Assembly (NCBI RefSeq): GCF_018873765.1
Contig: NC_057923.1
Coordinates: 7,328,413-7,392,412 of the forward strand
Reading direction: 5' to 3'
Length of the DNA stretch: 64,000 nt
Source: Telopea speciosissima
Lineage: Eukaryota; Streptophyta; Magnoliopsida; Proteales; Proteaceae
Positions 1-39,494 of the stretch are shown piece by piece; positions within the stretch are counted from its first letter, which is position 1, and the number at the start of each line of letters is the position of its first letter. Below the pieces are notes generated by a model that did not search any database, had not been told where the DNA came from, and saw only the letters and a list, made by a program, of their open reading frames with translations. Position numbers and translations under genes: made by a program.

Positions 1-1400
1 TCGTGGGAGTCCTTCACTGTTATAAGGATTGAAGTCTGAAGTTTGAAGAGCCTTACAGCTTGAGGCACAGTATTCTTCAAGTTCTGATTTCTGTTTTGGT
101 TGTGTTCTAACAGCCATTGGTTCCTAGATTGGCTTTGGTTTTGCACTCTTTATGTCCCTACATTCCTTTCTATTCTACTGGTTGTTCTATCGTTATTTAT
201 TCGTTGTTCTGCAACATTCTTCTTCTGTTCTAAGTCTACTGTTGCTATACTAATCTATTCTGGTTTCAGGATTTCATGTCATTATTCTCGCCCATCCAGC
301 CATTGGATTGGCCTATTTTCTGACCCTATTTGCTTCTCTGTCCCCCCTACCTTCATCCAGAATTGGAGGGTCATCTGACCCATTGATGCAGATACATCAC
401 CAACAGAGGCTTATTTTAATGGGAATAAGTTTAGAGTTGGGTTATCTACATGTTGGGTCTTTGATCCATGGGTTTCCAATGTACTTTTTCACTTTAATGG
501 ACCTAAAGTATGGGTAATAAGGTTGCATACGGGATTAGCTGTTTCAATTCGCTAGTTTTATTTTTATGTAATTAGTGGTCATGTGACTTGGTTAAGTGGT
601 CATGTGACAACTTAAGTGGTCATGTGACTCAGTTTAGGTTACGTAGTAGGTTAAGGATTGAGTTAAGCCTTTCTTTTTTAGTGTAAGAGTCTATTTTTGA
701 GTCTTTTATATAAGGTTGTAAGAGGGGCAAGTATTGGACACGAATTTTTTATTAATGAAAAGTTTTTTGCTGCTCTTCTTTTCCATTGAAGATTTTTGTC
801 TTGTGTTTGATCAAGGCTAAAGGAATCGGTGTTTGATCCGATTGACACCTTGCGGTGGGAAGCCCAAGTAGTTCGAACTGGTTACTTGTTTTCTCCATTG
901 CTGTTACATTCAAGTTCTTGTTCAAGTTCTGGTTTCAAGAGTTGTTCTACATCAACAAAGAAATTCTGTTCAAATTTGTTCTTCAATAACCAAGTAAGTT
1001 GAACCTGAACCAAACCCTAACCACTCTCTTCTTCTCCTCTAGACCACCCATAACCTGCCCAGCATAACCTAACCATCAGAACACTACCGCCTCGACTGAG
1101 TGTCCTTCCAGACCTTTGGAAAACTCGATCCAACCTGGTCCTATTCTATCCACTCTAACCCTAGAATCTCCACTCATCTCTCTTTCCAAAACCTAACCCT
1201 AACTCAACCAACCTTGCTGCTGATTCTGTTCAGCAGCCTTAAACTGGTTAATTGTTAACGTGACTTTCACTGAAGACTTTCCTACATCAACTTACCTTAA
1301 CCCCAGACCCCACTAAACCCTAACCCTAAATTTGACATTTTCCATTAATTTAACCCTAACCGAATCTCCCTTTGAAGAACAGATCCTGGTTTTGGCTTGT
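1..1400 (+). other. LTR/leader-like retroelement sequence (tentative)
   Basis: No convincing coding region is seen. A TATA-like stretch near 706-715 is followed by a transcript-leader-like segment and a CT-rich stretch with several AACCCTAA motifs (about 1010-1360). This resembles the leader end of the long LTRs found at 42090-43342 in this window. No matching second LTR or primer-binding site is visible, so the call is tentative. The short ORFs here lack any recognisable domain. Confidence 0.3.
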
Positions 1401-3608
1401 AGTTGAATGATATTCAATGGGAGATATCATTGGTCTTAGAAGTTGCTAAATCCTATTTTACTAATGTTTTTATTTTCTGTTATATACTATTCCAGAAGAT
1501 CCAAACATTGGATCAGCTTGATATTTAGAGGGCTCAAACAATCTATGGAGAAGTCTAATCAACTCTAATTTCAGCCCCATCCAACCACTAGATTATGAGA
1601 TATCTTAACCTTCTATATTCTATCCTTTGTTTCTTTACTTGGATAACCATGATTCTATCCTGCAGTTATTAGTGTTCTCTAAACCTAGTTTTGATTACCT
1701 AGAACACATCACTCCCACTGCGATATCTATGGGGTGCCCACTTTGCCGCTGGCTGACTTTGCTGAATGGGGTTCGACAATATCCTGCCCTGTTATTCTTC
1801 ACTGCAGTAGTTATAAATATTGACTTTTTTTTTCTTAAATACAGTGGTTGACGGGCAATTTAGATCGTTCTTCTTTTGTTTCTTGGGGGTTGGGGTGTTA
1901 ATTTTAGGCCTTCGTGATGTAGGATGTAGTATCCCACAATGGATTTGCGTTTTTTAGGAGGTAAGTATATATCATTTGATTAATGAAAACAAAAGAGCAA
2001 CCTAAGTAGATTTGTTCTGTGAAGAGTAAAGCATAGCTGAGAGAGGACCTCTGTACCAATCGGGTTGGGCAGAGATAAAAAAAAAAGGTACTCTGGAGGG
2101 AAAAATAAACTCTTAGTACTAATGGAATTGTCAGAAAATAGGCTTAGGGGACTCAGAATTGGGTTATTTTTTAAGGACCGGAACCTTTCAAGGTGGAATG
2201 CAGTAATTTATTGAAGAAAGTTGTGATTTTGATCGTATTACAATGGTCATTAGAATCCCTCAACTTTACAAGGTGCAGACATGAATCTCTCAGGGAAAAA
2301 GCAGACAGCTGGGTCAATATTGGAGTTTTATTTAGGTTTTTTCGGAGTGATGATTGATGCTTGAGAAGGCAGGTTAGGAGTTTGTTTGGTTGTTGTTTGA
2401 TGGAGAAGTGGGTTGGTAGGCAGGTCATGGGGCTGAAATTGGATGGATATACATGTTGCAGGGCTGGTTAGGTGATGTTAACAGTGGCCAGATAATGAAA
2501 AAGGGAGGAGAAAGAAGAAGAAATAGAACCTGGGATTTACCTAATTGAAAGGTGATTCCCATGGCTGAAAGAGTGATGGAGAAGCATGAATTTGATTTTA
2601 TTGCTTGAAAATTGAGCTTGCATACAGGCTTATAGATACCTCTGTATGTACCTTCCCACAGTTTTTGGACTGTTCTGTTCATGCTGTATCTCAAAATCAA
2701 AGAGAGTGAAAATATGAACTAAGCTGTCACCAAGCTTATTAGCCCCAAATTTATTGAAAATAGATAAAAGGCCTGAATAACTTAAATTCCATTCATAAGT
2801 ACTAAATTTTCCTTTAAATTATGTTATTGCCCCACTGCACCCAAAGGCCGACTTCCAAGCTGTAACGACATTCTCTAATGACATGTGAATCAAGACCAGT
2901 GCTCTAACCCTGCACCCTAACTTAAAAATGTAATAACTCTCTAATGAATAATGCAAATCAGAACCTGCTCTGACCATTAGTTGTACTAAGGTACTACACC
3001 CTTGACCCTACTCAAGAACATGAAACCCAACTACCCAACCCTATTGGTCTAGATGTAGGCCCCATAAATCTTAAACTCCTGCTTCTATGGCTGTCCAGAT
3101 TCCCTCTATGGCTTTATCAGCTTTCGAACTTGACCTTCCAGCTTTGGGCAGGCATCAGCTAATTCTTTGGGTTTGGTTGCCCTTTGTTTGCATCTTTCCT
3201 GGTCATCTCTGGGCGAAAAGTCAATATTTATCTGCCTTTTGGAGAAGAAGTGTTTTTGTTTTTAATTTTCCAGTACCGAGGAAGGTGGAGGGAGGGGAGT
3301 CTGGTGCATTAGGATCTTCTATTAAGCAATACTGCTTGTAAAGGTCGAACGTTCTCTTTCAAAATACATGCTGAAGATAGAAACATATAGAGGTAAAAAA
3401 GTGAATTTATAACATGGACAACATAATTTGATGAAGGATTATATGCTGTAATTGTTATTACCGCTTCATTAGTAACTATTGTCAATCCTCGGAGGTCAAG
3501 ATTCAATAGTATCAATAGTAATTTCTTGTAATCATTTTAGTTTGTTTAGACTGGTGGTTTGGAAAAGCCTCCCTCCCTATCACAACCTTGAGGTATTGTC
3601 CCCCATTC
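1401..3608. other. No gene recognised
   Basis: AT-rich sequence with short ORFs only, none with recognisable domains or matching splice sites. Nothing can be supported beyond unclassified intergenic DNA. Confidence 0.4.
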
Positions 3609-5504
3609 TGCTGATCCCAAAACCAAATCCCTGGATTGCAATTCTGAAAATTGTTTATCTTTCAACTTCATAGGCTCTTCCACAATACTTTTTTGTTCTC
3701 TTTCTGGATGGATATATGAAGGTTATCCAATGGTGCAACCTGGACACTATGACCATGCTTATGAGGTGTTTAGATCTGGACATCTCAGTGACTAGGCACA
3801 CTGATCATTTCAAGGTTCAGAATCATAAGGATGGCACTGGTATAAACTCTGCATCTGTCTCTGGAACATATGGCAGCATCATCTACACTGTCAAATTCAA
3901 ACTTTTTCATCATAGAAATTGATGGTCTTTGAGTTATGCTTATTGTCTAAGAATTCATTCATGGAGAGGTTGAGGTTCACAAGATCGATTTCAAGAAGCA
4001 GCCACCACATACTCACAAAGAAAAAGGCTTATGCTGCCACATCCAAATATTTTCTCTATCCCTGATTCTGTGGAATCTGATCAGTGTTGTGTGTGTATGA
4101 TCTTGTCAGTTGCACTTTGTAGAGGAGTTTTTTTCTTTTTTTTTTGGGGGGGGGGGGGGGGGAGGAAAACTACTGGATTTTTTTTAGGGTGTTTGTTAGA
4201 AACATTGAGATGAAACTAAAAAGCCGTAGCAAGAGAGATGTAGGAAGTGTTAACTATTAAGTTCTGGTCCGCCTTTACACAAGCTTGCTTTTTGGGTAAT
4301 TTATCCTGATCTCATAGCTTTGCATCAGAAACACATCCAAGAGATCTATAACTCAATGTCAACTCTTCAGCAACATTAGCAAATAGAAGTTAGCATCTCT
4401 CAGCTTGTTCTTTTTCCACTCCACCCCCTGTCCTTGTGAGAAGGGATATTGGTGCATGTTGATGTGGATATACAAACCTTGTTTGAGTTAATGATTTGAT
4501 TTGTCTCTAAATGTTGGTGTTTGTGAAATGGACAACAAAGGCCGATATTTAAAATTCCCGGACCTCAAGTATCAATTGGTATGGCAACAACCGCCACCTA
4601 GTGAGCCACTGATGTTGTTTAAAGAAACAGATTCCGCTACTATAACATCCTTTAGACTTCAGATTACTGTGTCAGGTGTTGTTTCTGTGTGTTCAAATGC
4701 TGGGAGGCTTTAAGCTGGAGACTGGTTTGATCCTTGAATGAAGAAGTGATCGTGCAGCACATGCTTGTATCATTCAAACCCAGGTATGGTGGTAGTTTGT
4801 ATTGTAAGTTTTATGCAAAGATCAATTTGTTTGTAGATATTAAGGTGTAAACAAGCACGACCTAAGTCTAACCTTATCATTAGATTGATGCCACCCTGCT
4901 GTAAGAAGAAAAAGGTGTTTCTTTTGGATTTCTCATTGTGTGAAGCCATCACAAAGTTCTGGGTTGTTAAGCATGGGACGAAGTACTTCTGTTTGCGGAA
5001 TTGGTGAATTTCTATTCCTGTATGGCAGGTTCTACCCTGCACCCTCAACATAATTTCATCCCCAACCTTGAGTGAAGTCACAGGATTGCTGGTTTTTGTA
5101 TATTCATTTCCTGCAGAAAAGGTATGGGAATCCAGCCTTCAAGGAGTAAGCAAAGGTAGAATAAACAGAGGAAAATTTTCTTTTGCAGTTATAATGAACT
5201 TAGGATTGGACAGACTAGGCCAACCATATCCATCTTCTGTATAAGGATGCTGTAGATGGTTTCATAATCCGAATTTCTTTTTTTTTTTTTTTTTTGTCGG
5301 GTTTGTTCCGCCCACTGAACTAACCCAAGTTGATCTGATTGAGAATCTCATATCTAAGACATACCATCAGAGGCTATGTCTTGATTGAACCTCAACCTAA
5401 CCTAGCCAGTTTGTGTTGCACCTCTCACCAGGGTAGTAGTTTATCTATGGCATAGCCAGCAAAATGTAGACCAATGGCCTGCGGGGAGAGGTTGTAATTG
5501 TACC
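3609..5504 (+). repeat. Copy 1 of a degenerate triplicated block
   Basis: From about 3609 the sequence matches 12470-14976 for most of its length, with small indels; the match ends where a hAT-like element starts at 5505. It contains a G homopolymer (4145-4161) and two short open stretches, 3716-3922 and 4501-4713, whose counterparts are in copy 2. The first has a run with W-C-N-L-D and HKDG motifs; the second has a run with PDLKYQLVWQQPPP. I recognise neither family. It may be a decayed gene fragment or a non-coding locus. Copy 1 lacks the 460-bp solo LTR present in copy 2. Confidence 0.65.
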
Positions 5505-6406
5505 TAAGGATGTCAAAACCTAGCCTGAACTGATAAGACCGATCGAAACCGACCGAAAAAACCCGGATTGAACTGAACCGATCCTTATTGGATTGGATTT
5601 GGATTGGTTTATGACGGGATCGACTGAAAACCAGACCATAGCAAACCGATTGATATCCAAACCGAAAACCGAACCGGATGAAACTGATAAAAAATATTGA
5701 ATATAAGGTTATGAATAGGTGAATTGATTATCCATTGACTTCAATATTAATGAGAAAATTTCTGGTTGTAAGGGGAATTGCTAAAAATCAAAGAGAGCTT
5801 ATGAATAGGAAAATTGATTTGTAACAAGACTTCCATTGATCTCCTTGTTCACTATATTAGTTGGATAGTAAATTAATGATTTGATAGTAGGGTTGATTTA
5901 GTGATTTCAATATTAGTTATCTTTCTCATTCACTAGTTATTCATTGATTTCAAAATTAGTTATCTTCTCTTTACAATTAATGATAAATAATTTTATGATT
6001 TGTAGCAATGATTTCGCTACAAACTCTATTTGTCCGTTGATTTCAATATTAGTTATCTTCCCCTTATAATTTATTCTCTTTGTTTAGTTTTCCTCCTATT
6101 CATGGTTGTTTGCTTGTTTGACTTGGGGAAGGTGAATTAAAGTGTTTTTATCGAATATTTCCTCAATACAAGTTATGAATGTAAGATTTCATTGTGGTTC
6201 AAACCCGAGGAAAAAAAAAAAACAATCTAAACTGATATTAACCCGGTATTGGATAACCGAAATAATTCGAAACCGCATTGGATCGAAATTGAAACCGACC
6301 AAAAATCGAAGTTTCTTAATGATTTGGTTTTGGTCTCACTCATTCCGAGACTGAAACCGATTCAGCCTGATCGAAATTGGGCCGAACCGACCGTTTGATA
6401 CCCCTA
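5505..6406. mobile_element. hAT-like non-autonomous DNA element, about 0.9 kb
   Basis: The left end reads TAAGGATGTCAAAAC and the right end, reverse-complemented, TAGGGGTATCAAAC, giving an imperfect terminal inverted repeat. Subterminal regions on both sides are rich in CGAAACCGA and GAACCGA motifs in opposite orientation. No transposase ORF is present. A clean 8-bp target duplication is not visible, so exact ends are uncertain. Ends of this kind are typical of plant hAT-derived elements; the superfamily is inferred from the termini. Confidence 0.6.
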
Positions 6407-32912: not shown

Positions 32913-33107
32913 TGTTAATAGGAAAGAATAGAGCTCAATGCTTGGATGTGTTAATGAACATCCAAGCCCCTTTATTTATAATAGAAGAGGGGAGAGAAAA
33001 ATTATAGAATTGACCCAACATTGTTCACCGTCACTGTTTACATGAACAGTGTCATAACCCTAATTACAATTCTACCCTTGCTCAAAATACTCCCACTTAT
33101 TCTAACA
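32913..33107 (-). repeat. 3' LTR of the 32.9-39.5 kb copia
   Basis: 195 bp. It differs from the partner mainly by a 4-bp GAGG-type indel and a few substitutions. It contains CACTGTTTACATGAACAGTG, related to the palindrome in the 24.4-kb element's LTR, which suggests related families. Confidence 0.9.
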
Positions 33108-33114
33108 CTCCCCC

Positions 33115-35900
33115 TCAAGTTGGAGCATAAATATCAAACATGCCCAATGTGACTAAAATAGGATGAAAGACTTTCCCGCTCAACCCTTTAGTGAACACAT
33201 CAGCCAGTTGATCAGCAGACTTCACAAAAGCAACACAGATCAGTCCTTCTTCCAGCTTCTCTTTGATGAAATGCCTATCAACCTCCACATGCTTGGTACG
33301 ATCATGCTGAACCGGATTGTGAGCAATGCTAATGGCAGCCTTGTTGTCACAATACAACATCACAGGGAGACGAATAGGAACACCAAGACCTTGTAATAAA
33401 CCTCTAAACCATAATAGCTCACAAATGCCTTGTGCCATAGCATGAAATTCTACTTCAGCACTGGACCTTGCTATCACGTTTTGTTTCTTGCTACGCCAAG
33501 TGACAAGATTTCCACCTTCAAAGAGCAATAACCAGATATAGATTTTCTATCAGAAGATCCAGCCCAATCAACATCAGTATACGCTTCAACTCGTAGATGG
33601 TCATGAGGAGATAAGAGAATTCCTTTTTCTAGGGCTGACATCAAATAACAAAGAATACAAAGAACAACATCCATACGTGAGGAATAAGGATCATGCATGA
33701 ACTGACTTACCAAACTCACGGCAATATGTCTGACCGTGTATGAGAGAGGTGAATAAGTTTCCCTACCAGCCATTGGTAACGACCTTTGTCAACCGGTTCA
33801 CCCTCTTTTTCCTCGAGTCTTGTAGTAGCCTCCATAGGTGTATCAACAGGGCGACACCTTAACATCCCGGTCTCAAATAATAGATCTAGCATATACTTCC
33901 TTTGATAAAGAAAGATGTGAAGATCGTGCAACCTCTATCCCTAGAAAGTACTTTAGCTTTCCTAGATCCTTTATTTCAAATTCACGACCAAGCAAAGTCT
34001 TCAACTTGTTGATCTCATCACCATCATTCCCTGTCACCACAATATCATCCACATAGACTATGAAAATGGTTACTTTATCACCATTCCTTTTGATAAATAG
34101 AGTATGGTCAGTATTACTCTGCTCATATTCCACAGAAACCATAGCCTTATGAAATCTTCCAAACCAGGCACGAGGTGATTGTTTTAGCTCATATAAAGCA
34201 CGCTTCAATTTACATACCTTGCCGCTGATTTTGTCACATGAGAACCCAGGTGGAATGTCCACATATACCTCCTCTTCAAGCTCGTCATGGAGGAAGGCAT
34301 TCTTCACGTCCAACTGTTGTCAATCCCATCCCAGATTTACTGCACAAGATAGTAACATCTGACAGTATTTAGTTTAGCAACATGTGCAAAGGTCTCCTGG
34401 TAGTCAATCCCAAATGTCTGAGTGAACCCCTTTGCCACCAATAGTGCCTTGTATCGATCCACAATACCATCAACCTTCTGTTTCACCACAAACACCCGTT
34501 TACATCCAACTGGTCTTTTCCCTGGAGGAAGAACCACAAGATCCCATGTATCATTTTTTTGCAAGGCTCTCATTTCTTCCATCATTGTTGCCTTCCACTT
34601 TCCATCTGCAAGAGCATCCTGCCAATTCTAGGGAATACAAACAGAAGAAGGGAAGAAACAAAAGCACGAAAGGATTGAGAAAGGGAATTATAGGAGACAA
34701 TATGAGATATAGGATGCTGAGTACAAGTCCTAGTACCTTTGTAACTAACAATAGGTAACTTAGAAGAAAGGGTTTTACCTGGAGTGGGAAGATGATAGGT
34801 ATTGGTGCTACAATGGATGGAAGCTGCTTGTATTTGGAACATCTTCTCCGATATGTTTTGAAATTTAAGTCATTAATTCTCTTCTGAAATTCTCCAATGG
34901 TTTTCTGGACTGGAGTAAGCTCCCCCTAAACAGAAACTGTGTGATTACCAGTATCCAAGGTCTCCCCCTGTGTGGAATCCTCTTCATTAGATGGTATGTG
35001 AGGGACAAGAGTGGGTTCAGGCTGGTTATACATGGGAACCTCAAGAGGGAGAGGGGGCCCAAGAGTCAACACCTCTTCATGGGAATTCTCCCCTTGAAGA
35101 AGTATAGTGGGATAACAGGAAAGGGTTTCATGGAAAATGACATCCAAACTCACCATGGTACGACGGGTGGGTGGATGGTAACATTTATAACCCCTCTGCG
35201 AGGGAGAATAGCCCAAGAAAATGCACCGAAGGCTATGGGGTTTAAGTTTACTAGGGGACCGAGTATCCCTAGCATAACAAACACAGCCAAAAACTTTAGG
35301 TGGAACTATAAAGGTTGAGGAGCCATTTAAAAGAGCAGCAAGGGTATAGGAGTCGAGGACTCGGGTAGGCAGCCTATTAATAAGGTATGCTACAGTAAGA
35401 ACAACATCCCCCTAATATTGGGGAGGAACATGATGGACAAACATAAGTGCTCGAGCCAACTCTAAGAGGTGGCGATTTTTTCTTTCAGCCAATCCATTAT
35501 GGGCAGGAGTATCCACACAACTAGTCTGGTGGAGGATCCCATAGGCAGCAAGGTAGTTTTGGAACTGACCTTCCATATACTCTTTGTCATTGTCACTCCT
35601 CAAAATTTAGAGAGTAGCATTGTATTGGGTCTGAACCAATTTATGAAAATGTTGAAAACATGAGAAAACATCACTTTTATTATGCACCAAATATACTCAG
35701 GTACTCCTAGAGTGGCAATCAATAAAGGAAATAAACCAACGATGGCCAAAAATAAAAGGTTTCCGACTAGGACCCCATACATCAGGATGAACCAGATTAA
35801 AAAGGGAAAGACTTCTTTTATTAGAAATAGAATAAGCTGAACGAGTCTGTTTGGCCAGAACACAAGCCTCACAAAAAAGGTCATCCTCATTACATTATTT
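33115..35900 (-). pseudogene. copia integrase, reverse transcriptase and RNase H, broken frames
   Basis: The integrase remnant lies at 35412-35890 (TPAHNGLAERKNRHLLELAR). Reverse transcriptase is split between 34337-34585 (KARL-like region and [13 protein letters not shown]) and 33873-34313 (DVKNAFLHDELEEEVYV...YVDDIVVTG, catalytic YVDD retained). RNase H/C-terminal is at 33115-33773 (WRSKKQNVIARSSAEVEF, YCDNKAAISIAHNPVQHDRTKH, QLADVFTKGLS). The pieces are in different frames, so no functional polyprotein can be made. Confidence 0.9.
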
Positions 35901-37228
35901 AACTAATGTTGGAAATGAATGAGATAAAATTCCTAAAGGGGGGCGACCTAATCGATTATGCCATTGTTGAAGTTCATAAGATACCAATGAAGTTTGATGA
36001 AGGGGAGATGGTGGTGGTGGTGAAGGAGGACGACCATCATCCAGCAGATACAATCCATCATGCACTTTACCCCATCCAATCGTTGCCCCAGTTGTCAGAT
36101 CCTAAAAAACACAATGGGAAAGGGGAAAAAAAAAGTCACTTTATAGTTCAAGTCACGAGTAAGACTACTAATGGATAGAAGGTTAGTAGTAAAATTAGGT
36201 ATATGTAAAACAGAGGATAAAGAGATAGACGGAGAGCAACTGATAGAGCCTTTCCCAGAGATAGAGGAGAGAGAACCATCAGCCACCCGAACTTTGTCTT
36301 TCCCAAAAGTGGGTGAATAGTGATAAAAGAGGCTAGAGGATCCAGTCATGTGATCAGTGGCATTATAGCCTATGATCCAAGGGGTAGAGACTACTGATGC
36401 ACAATGACTAGCAAACGGACTACCTGAGTGGACAAAATGGGAACTTGAAGTGGTGGATTGATTGGCAAGAGTCGATGTAATAGATGCAACAAAGGCCTGT
36501 AACATACGACGGAATGCCTGAAGTTCATCCTGGGAGAGACTAATGTCAGTAGAAGGAGCCGTGGGAATAGTCTCCGTATGATTGGCTTTGTTTTTCGATT
36601 TCCCACGAGCAACACGCTTGGCCTCAAAATCAGCTGGTTTACCATGAAGCTTCCAGGAAGTGGCTTTAGTGTGATAGGGTTTATTGTAGTGTTTACATCT
36701 CACAATCGCTTTGGAAGAATCACTAGGAGCAGTAGGAGCAGCAGCGGCAACAGTCTGTAGAGCAAATCGATCAGTTATTGGAGTATGTAGCATGGCTGCC
36801 CTACGATTTTCTTTAGAAAGAACTAAAGCACAGGACTGCTCCAAGGTAGGGAATGGAACCCTGCCCAAAACCTGAACTTGAATATGGTCATATTCAACAT
36901 TTAAACCAGCCAGGAAGTCATAAACCCAAATCTTGTCAACATGCTTGCGATATGCAGCAATATCGGTTACATTAGTGGGCTGATAATCTGAGTAGTGGTC
37001 CAGATGTTGCCATAGACTACGAAGGACAGCATAATACTTAGAGATGTAAAAGTCTTTCTGAGTGGTGCCATGAATCTTCTTGCGCAATTCATAAACCTGG
37101 GCATCGTTCCAACCTGTCCATAAGTTTCCTCCGCAACCAGCCAAATCTGAGCAGAAGTTTCGAGTAGCAAATAACCATTGGCCGGATCTGGTTGCATGGA
37201 GTTAAGTAAAAAAGACATGACTTAAGAG

Positions 37229-38593
37229 CATGGAATCAAAACTCTATCGAAACCTGTCGAAACCGTCGAGACAACTCGGTTTCGACAGGTTCCAAGACGA
37301 GTTGAACCTAAACTTTAAAAAATCTATTAATTCGACTGGTTTCGGTGGTTTCGTTTTTAACGTCACTAAGGATGAGTTCCTCCTCTGTATCTCAATCAAA
37401 ACAGAAGAGTTGCTTTGCTTTACAAGGTGACTACACTCAATTGCAGTTGCAGAACTTTACTGCTGTCTCTAAACAGCAAGAAGAACGGCAGAATCAAGAG
37501 CAACCCTGCTTTGTTTTGGGTACCGACATCAAATCTGAAAGACCAATGATGGTGGAGAGGGAAGAGGTACCTCAGCAACCGCTGCTTCACTTCTTCGATG
37601 AATGGCCACCGAAGAACAAGGACTACTCCACAACCCAGCTCTCGATTTCCATTCCAATGCCATCTCCTGACCTCTCAGTGTCCAATCCCCGAACTCAGAA
37701 TGGTACTCTTAGTTTCCATTTGATTCTTCTTATCTATCTTTCTGTTTCTGCAGATGGTTGAACTGTCAAAGTGGATGGGTTTTTTTTGCTGGATCAAGAG
37801 AACTGCTCTGCCATGCTCTCTCTGTTTAGTCTGTGACTGAATAATGAGTGCAACAAGAGCCTCTCTCTCTCTCTTGAAAAGGAACTTTCCAGTAATCCCT
37901 CTTTCCACCTCTTCCACTTTTTCATTCCCCAACCCCACCCTCCCTTTCCTCATCTAGAAGGCATTTTAGAGGGATTACAGTGCAAACATCATGGTTTCTA
38001 GCCAATCCCCAGTTCTACTTATTAATCAGTTTCCCTCCAATTTTAGTCTTTCTTCATCTCACTCTCAACTCAGCTAAAAGAAGAAAAAAAAGTTTTTAAG
38101 TTTTTTTTTATTACCCAATCATCCACAGTGATTTGAAGTCTCATTATTAACTCCTATTTCCTTACTAACAAAGGTCCGAAATATCCTTCATGAGTTGGGA
38201 TAACTACTTGAACTGCATCAAGCCAACTCCAAAATTTTAATGTTTTATTTGGATTCAATGTATTATTCAGGGTTCAAGTACTTTATAATTATGTGAACTA
38301 ATTATAAATTTATAATACCACTATAGCGTTGGTATCGTATCAGTGCGTACGTTAGTAAACTTGGGTCAATAGCCACAAGTACTATTTTTAGTGATTTTTT
38401 TGTCAATGTAATTCATGAATTGTGTTTAAAATGTGAAAAATAGGCAACCTGCAAAAAATCAGGCTTAAAAAACCCTTGTTTTCCCCATCAATGGGAAAAA
38501 ATCCCAGGTTTCGACCGAGATATGGTCGAAACCGAGATGAACTCAATTTCTGGCTGGTCGAAACCTTGTTGAAACCCGAGTTTTAGAACCATG
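37229..38593 (+). mobile_element. hAT-like non-autonomous element carrying a GRF gene fragment
   Basis: The insertion begins CATGGAATCAAAACTC and its right end, reverse-complemented, reads CATGGTTCTAAAACTCGG (12 of 16 identical). The flanks CTTAAGAG (37221-37228) and CATAAGAG (38594-38601) agree at 7 of 8 bases, a hAT-length duplication. Near both ends are repeats of GTCGAAACC in opposite orientation. It interrupts copia gag, so it is younger than that element. The same CATGGTT terminus and 8-bp duplication occur in the small elements at 49588-49829 and 51454-51673. No transposase is present. Confidence 0.75.
37372..37761 (+). pseudogene. GRF-like fragment: Captured C-terminal fragment of a growth-regulating factor (GRF) gene
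   Basis: The plus-strand reading SSSSVSQSKQKSCFALQGDY, then CFVLGTDIKSERP, LLHFFDEWPPKNKD, STTQLSISIPMPSPDLS and SVSNPRTQN is the C-terminal part of plant GRF transcription factors (the FFDEWP and TQL regions). A GT at 37703 and a CAG at 37751-37753 bracket a 51-bp probable intron, after which the frame closes as Asp-Gly-stop at 37761. The N-terminal QLQ and WRC domains are absent, so no DNA-binding protein can be made. A retained intron implies capture from genomic DNA, not from an mRNA. The 51-bp intron is short for plants and may itself be trimmed. The upstream edge of the captured part is not resolved. Confidence 0.8.
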
Positions 38594-39304
38594 CATAAGA
38601 GTCACTGGAGATCCATCGATCCTGAAGAGGACCAACAGTACATGGTTTCTCGGCAGTGCCAGTGATATGTCCAGTGAGACCACAGCCAACAATAGTGAGA
38701 TATGTAGACCTGGACCACAACAGGTAATTAATTCCATCAAGTTTGATGGAGGAAGCAAAGGGAAGATACTCTTATCGTGGGTGTCCATCAAGGCCAGAAG
38801 TAACAGTAGAAGTGTCGTCAGACATTAGGGCACAATAGAAGAGAGCTAAAAAAACAAAGCTGATGTGGCCAAGAAACAGATCGAGTGCTCCTTAGTTGAT
38901 GGTGAAACACTCCTCCAAAAATCAGCAGCAACAGAAGCCCAGAAACCCTAGATCGATCTTGTCAAGATTTTGAAAAAAACCCAAAAATTTGGCAGATATC
39001 GACGAAGAGAAGAGGCTGGAAAATAGTAGCTTGTCCAAGAAATCCCTGCTGTCCTTGATCTTCTAAGAAAAAACAGAATTGATCCAACAGTCCCCCAGGT
39101 GAAGCTTCAAAAATCGCAGGTAGGAAGTGGCACAGCTGCTATCAATCTTGAATTAGGTCATCAATGAATGAGGTACTGAGGGGCAGCAACTAGATCCATG
39201 GATCACCTCATTAGTGCTGCCCTGTAACAATGGAAGAAACCAGAGAAAAAATGGGAGAATGAGAAGAGGGATTTGAACCCACACTCAAACCTGCTCTGAT
39301 GCCA

Positions 39305-39494
39305 TGTTAATAGGAAAGAATAGAGCTCAATGCTTGGATGTGTTAATGAACATCCAAGCCCCTTTATTTATAATAGAAGGGAGAGAAAAATTACAGAATT
39401 GACCCAACACTGTTCATCGGCACTGTTCACATGAACAGTCACAGCCTTAATTACAATTCTACCCTTGCTCAAAATATTCCCACTTATTCTAACA
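39305..39494 (-). repeat. 5' LTR of the 32.9-39.5 kb copia
   Basis: 190 bp, adjacent to the primer-binding site at 39293-39304. Confidence 0.9.

Follow-up and report, generated by a model that had tools for sequence, protein, structure and literature searches.

Probable uptake of two host fragments in succession by a non-autonomous hAT-type element of Telopea speciosissima

Gene capture by hAT transposons was called rare in 2011 (PMC3260210), where two Ds2 and nine Ds-l4 elements are given as carriers of gene fragments, and has since been described for maize (PMC8903248) and for animals (PMC8277862). A preliminary description of the DNA analysed here had said that such capture is less often described for hAT-like elements, which agrees with the 2011 account but not with the later ones. 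The maize Pack-hAT elements of PMC8903248 are non-autonomous, have terminal inverted repeats and an 8-bp duplication and hold pieces of host genes in their interior, as does the element studied here. That study also reports Pack-TYPE elements that combine pieces of several loci, and stepwise acquisition within a single family. The maize Ds2 and Ds-l4 elements (PMC3260210) likewise belong to the hAT superfamily and combine variable filler with intron-bearing gene fragments from other chromosomes; the shared ends of Ds2, approximately 200 bp long, and the modal length of Ds-l4, about 1 kb, are similar to what we find. The Pack-TIR elements of PMC8277862, again rich in hAT members and in part multicopy, resemble the present family in the microhomology at their joints and in having donors on other chromosomes.

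The element in the gag region of a copia retrotransposon

Within the window, the whole stretch of 64,000 nucleotides that was analysed, the element spans positions 37229–38593 (1,365 bp) on contig C8, one of the eleven chromosome-sized contigs encountered (C1–C11), begins with CATGG and finishes with CCATG, as the preliminary description had placed it, exact to the single base. Judged by its sequence features, it is a non-autonomous hAT-type element with host cargo, that is, a Pack-hAT; 8-bp duplications and short terminal inverted repeats bear out the earlier guess that it is hAT-like. The flanks CTTAAGAG (37221–37228) and CATAAGAG (38594–38601) agree at seven of eight positions, the target duplication that had been claimed. 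The 5′ end of the family (37229–37354, plus strand, element 1–126) carries the terminal inverted repeat CATGGAATCAAAACTC and subterminal TCGAAACC motifs, and in the window copy the final ~46 bp of the family’s ~172-bp 5′ end are missing. The 3′ end (38234–38593, plus strand, element 1006–1365) carries the terminal inverted repeat GAGTTTTAGAACCATG. These repeats are short and of the CA..TG type, reading CATGGAATCAAAACTC / CATGGTTCTAAAACTC in the window copy and CATGGAATCAAAACTC / CAAGGTTCTAAAACTCG in its siblings, and the family end pair is CATGGAATCAAAACTC / CGAGTTTTAGAACCTTG.

The host copia retrotransposon lies on the minus strand at 32913–39494, with long terminal repeats (LTRs) at 32913–33107 and 39305–39494, and the element sits in its gag region. 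When the right-hand copy of the duplication, which is in frame with gag, is taken, the gag frame runs unbroken over the site as ..DSYVMSFLLNSMQP.., and the earlier claim that the element was inserted after the copia stands. The LTR pair is 92.8% identical (alignment of 195 columns, five gaps); this divergence, somewhat greater than that between the two copies of the growth-regulating factor (GRF) cargo described below, agrees weakly with the same order.

The 3′ part of the element was found in at least 36 places of the 823-Mb genome, the window included, and the whole element gave 62 matches (40 of 1,648 candidates scored in both cases). Thirty loci, designated by L-numbers, were fetched. Three of them are donors or a paralog (L010, L014 and L015) and 27 hold the 3′ end, which is accompanied by the 5′ end in 24; L029, L035 and L037, which have the 3′ end without the 5′ end, were left out, and the window copy brings the set to 25. 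A perfect 8-bp duplication flanks 18 of these 25 copies and a 7/8 duplication three, the window copy among them, whereas 400 mismatched flank pairs yielded none at 8/8 and one at 7/8. The 8-bp duplication of the family thus exceeds chance. The scan detected no duplication in four copies (L009 on C9, L012 on C1, L031 and L032); examined by eye, the flanks of the C9 copy agree at 7/8 with two extra bases and those of the C1 copy at about 6/8. A member nested inside another member in opposite orientation (L040, 2425–3670) is bounded by a perfect ATCGTATC duplication, and the sequence that it interrupts is known in its intact form. On C5, L046 (322–4570) consists of three head-to-tail units, each made up of a family member and a ~200-bp spacer and about 93% alike, an array that looks like a tandem duplication of the element plus the spacer.

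Cargo of the family and its donors

The captured GRF fragment spans 37357–37861 (plus strand, element 129–633) and corresponds to positions 5056–5620 of locus L010 on C3. Its exon part (37372–37702, plus strand) keeps an open frame from an ATG, translates as MSSSSVSQSK... and encodes HFFDEWPP (FFD) and TQLSISIP (TQL), motifs that fit the descriptions in PMC7380329. An intron of 51 nt with GT..AG kept (37703–37753), a remnant of the terminal exon ending in the stop codon (37754–37761, ..TQN-D-G-stop) and a stretch that is 3′ UTR by position (37762–37861) follow on the same strand. Both the probable intron and the stop codon of the preliminary description are there, although the intron has been cut down: it measures 111 nt in L010 (GT..AG) and also in the sister copy on C9, where it reads GT..AA. 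The stop codon and about 100 bp past it come in the same order in the element and in L010.

The attribution to a GRF gene, which had been proposed from the letters of the window, is confirmed by this DNA match, as L010 carries both QLQ (2.1e-15) and WRC (5.7e-22) a short way upstream of the stretch that was captured. L010 is the parent gene that the earlier proposal implied, with intron and 3′ UTR co-linear. The fragment also matches a GRF-like locus on C7 (L015), less well than L010. Compared with Pfam (window 37312–37761, E up to 10) it yielded no family and compared with PDB (E up to 1) no match, because it falls outside QLQ and WRC; neither is contained in it, and the capture point in the donor lies downstream of WRC. 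The presence of the intron in the donor and in both GRF copies speaks against an mRNA route, and the capture was most likely from DNA. That the GRF stretch might be the normal interior of the family can be dismissed: it was seen in two of the 36 family places detected (window and C9; 40 of 1,648 candidates scored, so that more copies may exist), and the interiors of the 25 copies, which have their ends in common, form several unrelated groups.

The preliminary description had recognised a single captured fragment and overlooked a further one at 37877–38237 (plus strand, element 649–1009), which corresponds to positions 4472–4834 of L014 on C3 and is separated from the GRF fragment by a TC-repeat joint (37862–37876). 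A search with this first-captured fragment (eight of eight candidates scored) gave five elements, namely those of the window, C6, C2, C1 and C9, the last with the fragment in two pieces, as well as L014 and a weak 50-bp match on C7. Between the family ends, the C1 copy holds the L014 stretch 4138–4834, the C6 copy 4133–4834 with a small local repeat and a 94-bp insertion, and the C2 copy 4234–4834, and no GRF match was obtained in any of these three. In the C9 copy, GRF positions 5044–5620 are followed by L014 sequence from 4335 onward. This sister copy is itself split by a 3.27-kb copia-like insertion (L009 4275–7541, element coordinates 985–4251) that, by reading, has gag- and integrase-like open frames. 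The donor of the first fragment is L014, which is not necessarily a gene; the nearest named feature in L014 is an ankyrin-repeat reading frame (447–695) some 3.4 kb upstream of the donor stretch. A comparison with Rfam revealed no known RNA gene in either cargo, all ten rows lying below the family gathering scores (the lowest E was 0.74 for the window stretch and 0.00098 for L009).

The reading as gene capture in the preliminary description holds, and sister copies carry other cargo. Group B holds a piece of an Apollo/SNM1-like gene in at least nine element copies (L018, L019, L020 and L040–L045; 40 of 329 candidates scored). The piece has a PDB match (E 2.7e-4) and, in Pfam, no match. Its likely donor is L039 on C7, which holds the same stretch, has a reading frame that begins before it and matches Pfam Lactamase_B_2 weakly (E 0.061). 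Group D, with at least six long matches (40 of 88 candidates scored), three of which were fetched (L017, L025 and L031), carries a piece that resembles the coiled-coil part of trihelix genes. This piece is 83% identical to L047 over 155 bp and 78% identical to L048 over 158 bp, and either locus may be the donor; Myb_DNA-bind_4 is matched by L048 in two pieces (E 0.029 and 7.5e-6), each under the curated cut-off. The interiors of groups C, E and F and of L026 gave no Pfam match above the curated cut-off. The interior of L034 (2132–2900) recurs at full length in at least 10 places and in part in many more (40 of 1,718 candidates scored) and is therefore regarded as repetitive DNA.

Probable order and mechanism of the two captures

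Taken together, these comparisons make it very probable that a non-autonomous hAT-type element took up two host fragments in succession, with the GRF piece as a likely passenger. The first capture brought in about 0.7 kb from L014 and is present in five copies; the second brought in about 0.58 kb from the 3′ part of the GRF gene L010 and is present in at least two. The GRF piece occupies the place where the C1 and C6 copies retain the initial ~200 bp of the earlier cargo. Both GRF joints are common to the window and C9 copies, and the GRF-bearing element has moved after the capture.

In the simplest history compatible with the alignments, the L014 fragment would have been captured and would then have spread, the GRF fragment would have been captured in place of the initial ~200 bp of this cargo, and the GRF-bearing element would have jumped again. 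In the window copy, the 5′ joint would subsequently have been shortened by ~46 bp, the intron by 60 bp and the remaining first cargo, at its beginning, by ~0.1 kb (donor positions 4335–4471). This copy inserted into the copia gag with an 8-bp duplication.

The divergence values agree with this order. Kimura two-parameter (K2P) distances between the elements and the first donor are 0.058–0.087 (five copies), and those to the GRF donor are 0.0275 for the C9 copy and 0.033 for the window copy. The GRF stretch has ten changes private to the window and eight private to C9, and at five sites both copies differ from the donor; of these, L015 goes with the elements at two, with the donor at one and is uninformative at two. 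Between the window and C9 copies the distance is 0.037 over the GRF stretch and 0.031 over the other shared cargo, and the ends diverge more than the cargo (0.086 for the 3′ end and 0.095 for the 5′ end). The differences in the ends are mostly transitions; CpG-context transitions account for 9/22 in the 3′ end (window 38249–38593 compared with L009) and for 5/10 in the 5′ end (37229–37354 compared with L009). Methylation-driven CpG decay would explain the extra divergence of the ends in part only.

The joints, examined by eye, show apparent microhomology of about 5 bp (AGGCT) at the 5′ side and 4 bp (ATTT) at the 3′ side of the first capture, and of 3 bp (TTA) at the 5′ side and 0–1 base at the 3′ side of the GRF capture. 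No element ends were found around L010 (9.0 kb) or L014 (9.5 kb) with the window element as query (E up to 1e-4), both stretches matching the element only by the captured part, or in the fetched stretch of the donor L039 (E up to 1e-5). Because of these short microhomologies and of donors without adjoining element ends, we favor a mechanism in which, each time that DNA was captured, repair or replication at the element would have switched its template to a donor unlinked to it. The copies would have been moved by a hAT transposase provided in trans. A rival to template switching is the fusion of neighboring insertions: two nearby members of the family would enclose a host fragment and later become mobile as one unit, the tandem-insertion model that PMC8903248 prefers for Pack-TYPE elements. 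Closely placed members do exist in this genome, as the three-unit array L046 on C5 and the nested pair L040 demonstrate. Yet the fetched stretches around all three donors are devoid of element ends, and the GRF piece meets the element at the very 5′ point used by the older cargo, with a short microhomology. We consider fusion unlikely here and template switching the better account, with the proviso that an element may once have adjoined a donor and then left.

Other origins are far less probable. A pseudogene, retroposed or broken, that happened to insert into an ordinary element is hardly conceivable as the source of the GRF piece, even though the piece comprises part of a gene with a stop codon and downstream sequence. 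The intron, kept at 51 nt in the window copy and at 111 nt in both C9 and the donor, rules out a processed pseudogene, the GRF 5′ joint coincides with that of the earlier cargo, and both GRF joints occur in two unlinked elements. Assignment to the Mutator-like or CACTA superfamilies is equally implausible. A 9-bp duplication and long terminal inverted repeats are the hallmarks of Pack-MULEs, which the 8-bp duplications and short repeats of this family rule out; a long terminal inverted repeat was looked for in the family and none was found. The ends are of the CATGG/CAAGG type, and in the element itself CATGG and CCATG, not CACTA, which disposes of a Pack-CACTA, although Mutator-like and CACTA elements rank among the best-known gene-capturing elements of plants (PMC3260210).

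Possible effect on GRF and comparison with described elements

To judge from its sequence, the GRF fragment is most likely a passenger. We think it quite improbable that the element acts on the donor GRF gene, lowering or changing its output outside miR396 control, be it through a short FFD/TQL protein without QLQ and WRC or through antisense or small RNA arising from the copia or from the element ends. In favor of such action, the frame is open from the ATG via the shortened intron to the stop codon, and the GRF sense runs opposite to the copia gag. Moreover, L010 contains an exact match to a motif that we take to be the miR396 target (4520–4540, upstream of the captured part), whereas the window, searched with up to three mismatches allowed, is without it. 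PMC13317346 discusses captured fragments as a source of siRNA. Against such action stand the shortening of the intron to 51 nt in the window copy and the loss of its AG in the C9 copy. The substitutions relative to the donor (three synonymous and four non-synonymous in the window; six and one in C9, whose coding stretch also has a 3-bp insertion) are too few to give a sign of constraint either way. A broader proposition is also improbable, if marginally less so: that one hAT family of this plant repeatedly gathers gene pieces, some of them from transcription-factor and DNA-repair genes, through template switches to donors unlinked to it, and that its GRF-bearing copies act back on a GRF gene outside miR396 control by way of small RNA, antisense RNA or a truncated FFD/TQL protein. 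For GRF regulation, the element would gain importance only if transcripts or small RNAs turn up.

No earlier report of this element was found among the titles and abstract openings listed, subscription papers lying outside the search. The capture process itself is already known, and the element is a further Pack-hAT akin to Ds2 and Ds-l4. As the donors occur in one genome together with copies that still show the outcome of the first capture, one that is close to the outcome of the second and one that has undergone further deletions, the family is a usable test case for how hAT cut-and-paste transposons take in host DNA.

Set against the maize Pack-hAT elements (PMC8903248), the present case concerns another family in another plant, the donors and intermediate stages can be traced for two captures in a row, and the fetched 8.5–9.5 kb around three donors are without element ends. 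The Pack-TIR elements of PMC8277862 belong to animal genomes, and a FoSTeST model is proposed for them, whereas here we infer the mechanism. Compared with Ds2 and Ds-l4, the ends of our element are unlike the Ac/Ds pattern as described in PMC3260210, pieces of two donors are united in one element, and at least two more gene-like pieces are present in sister groups.
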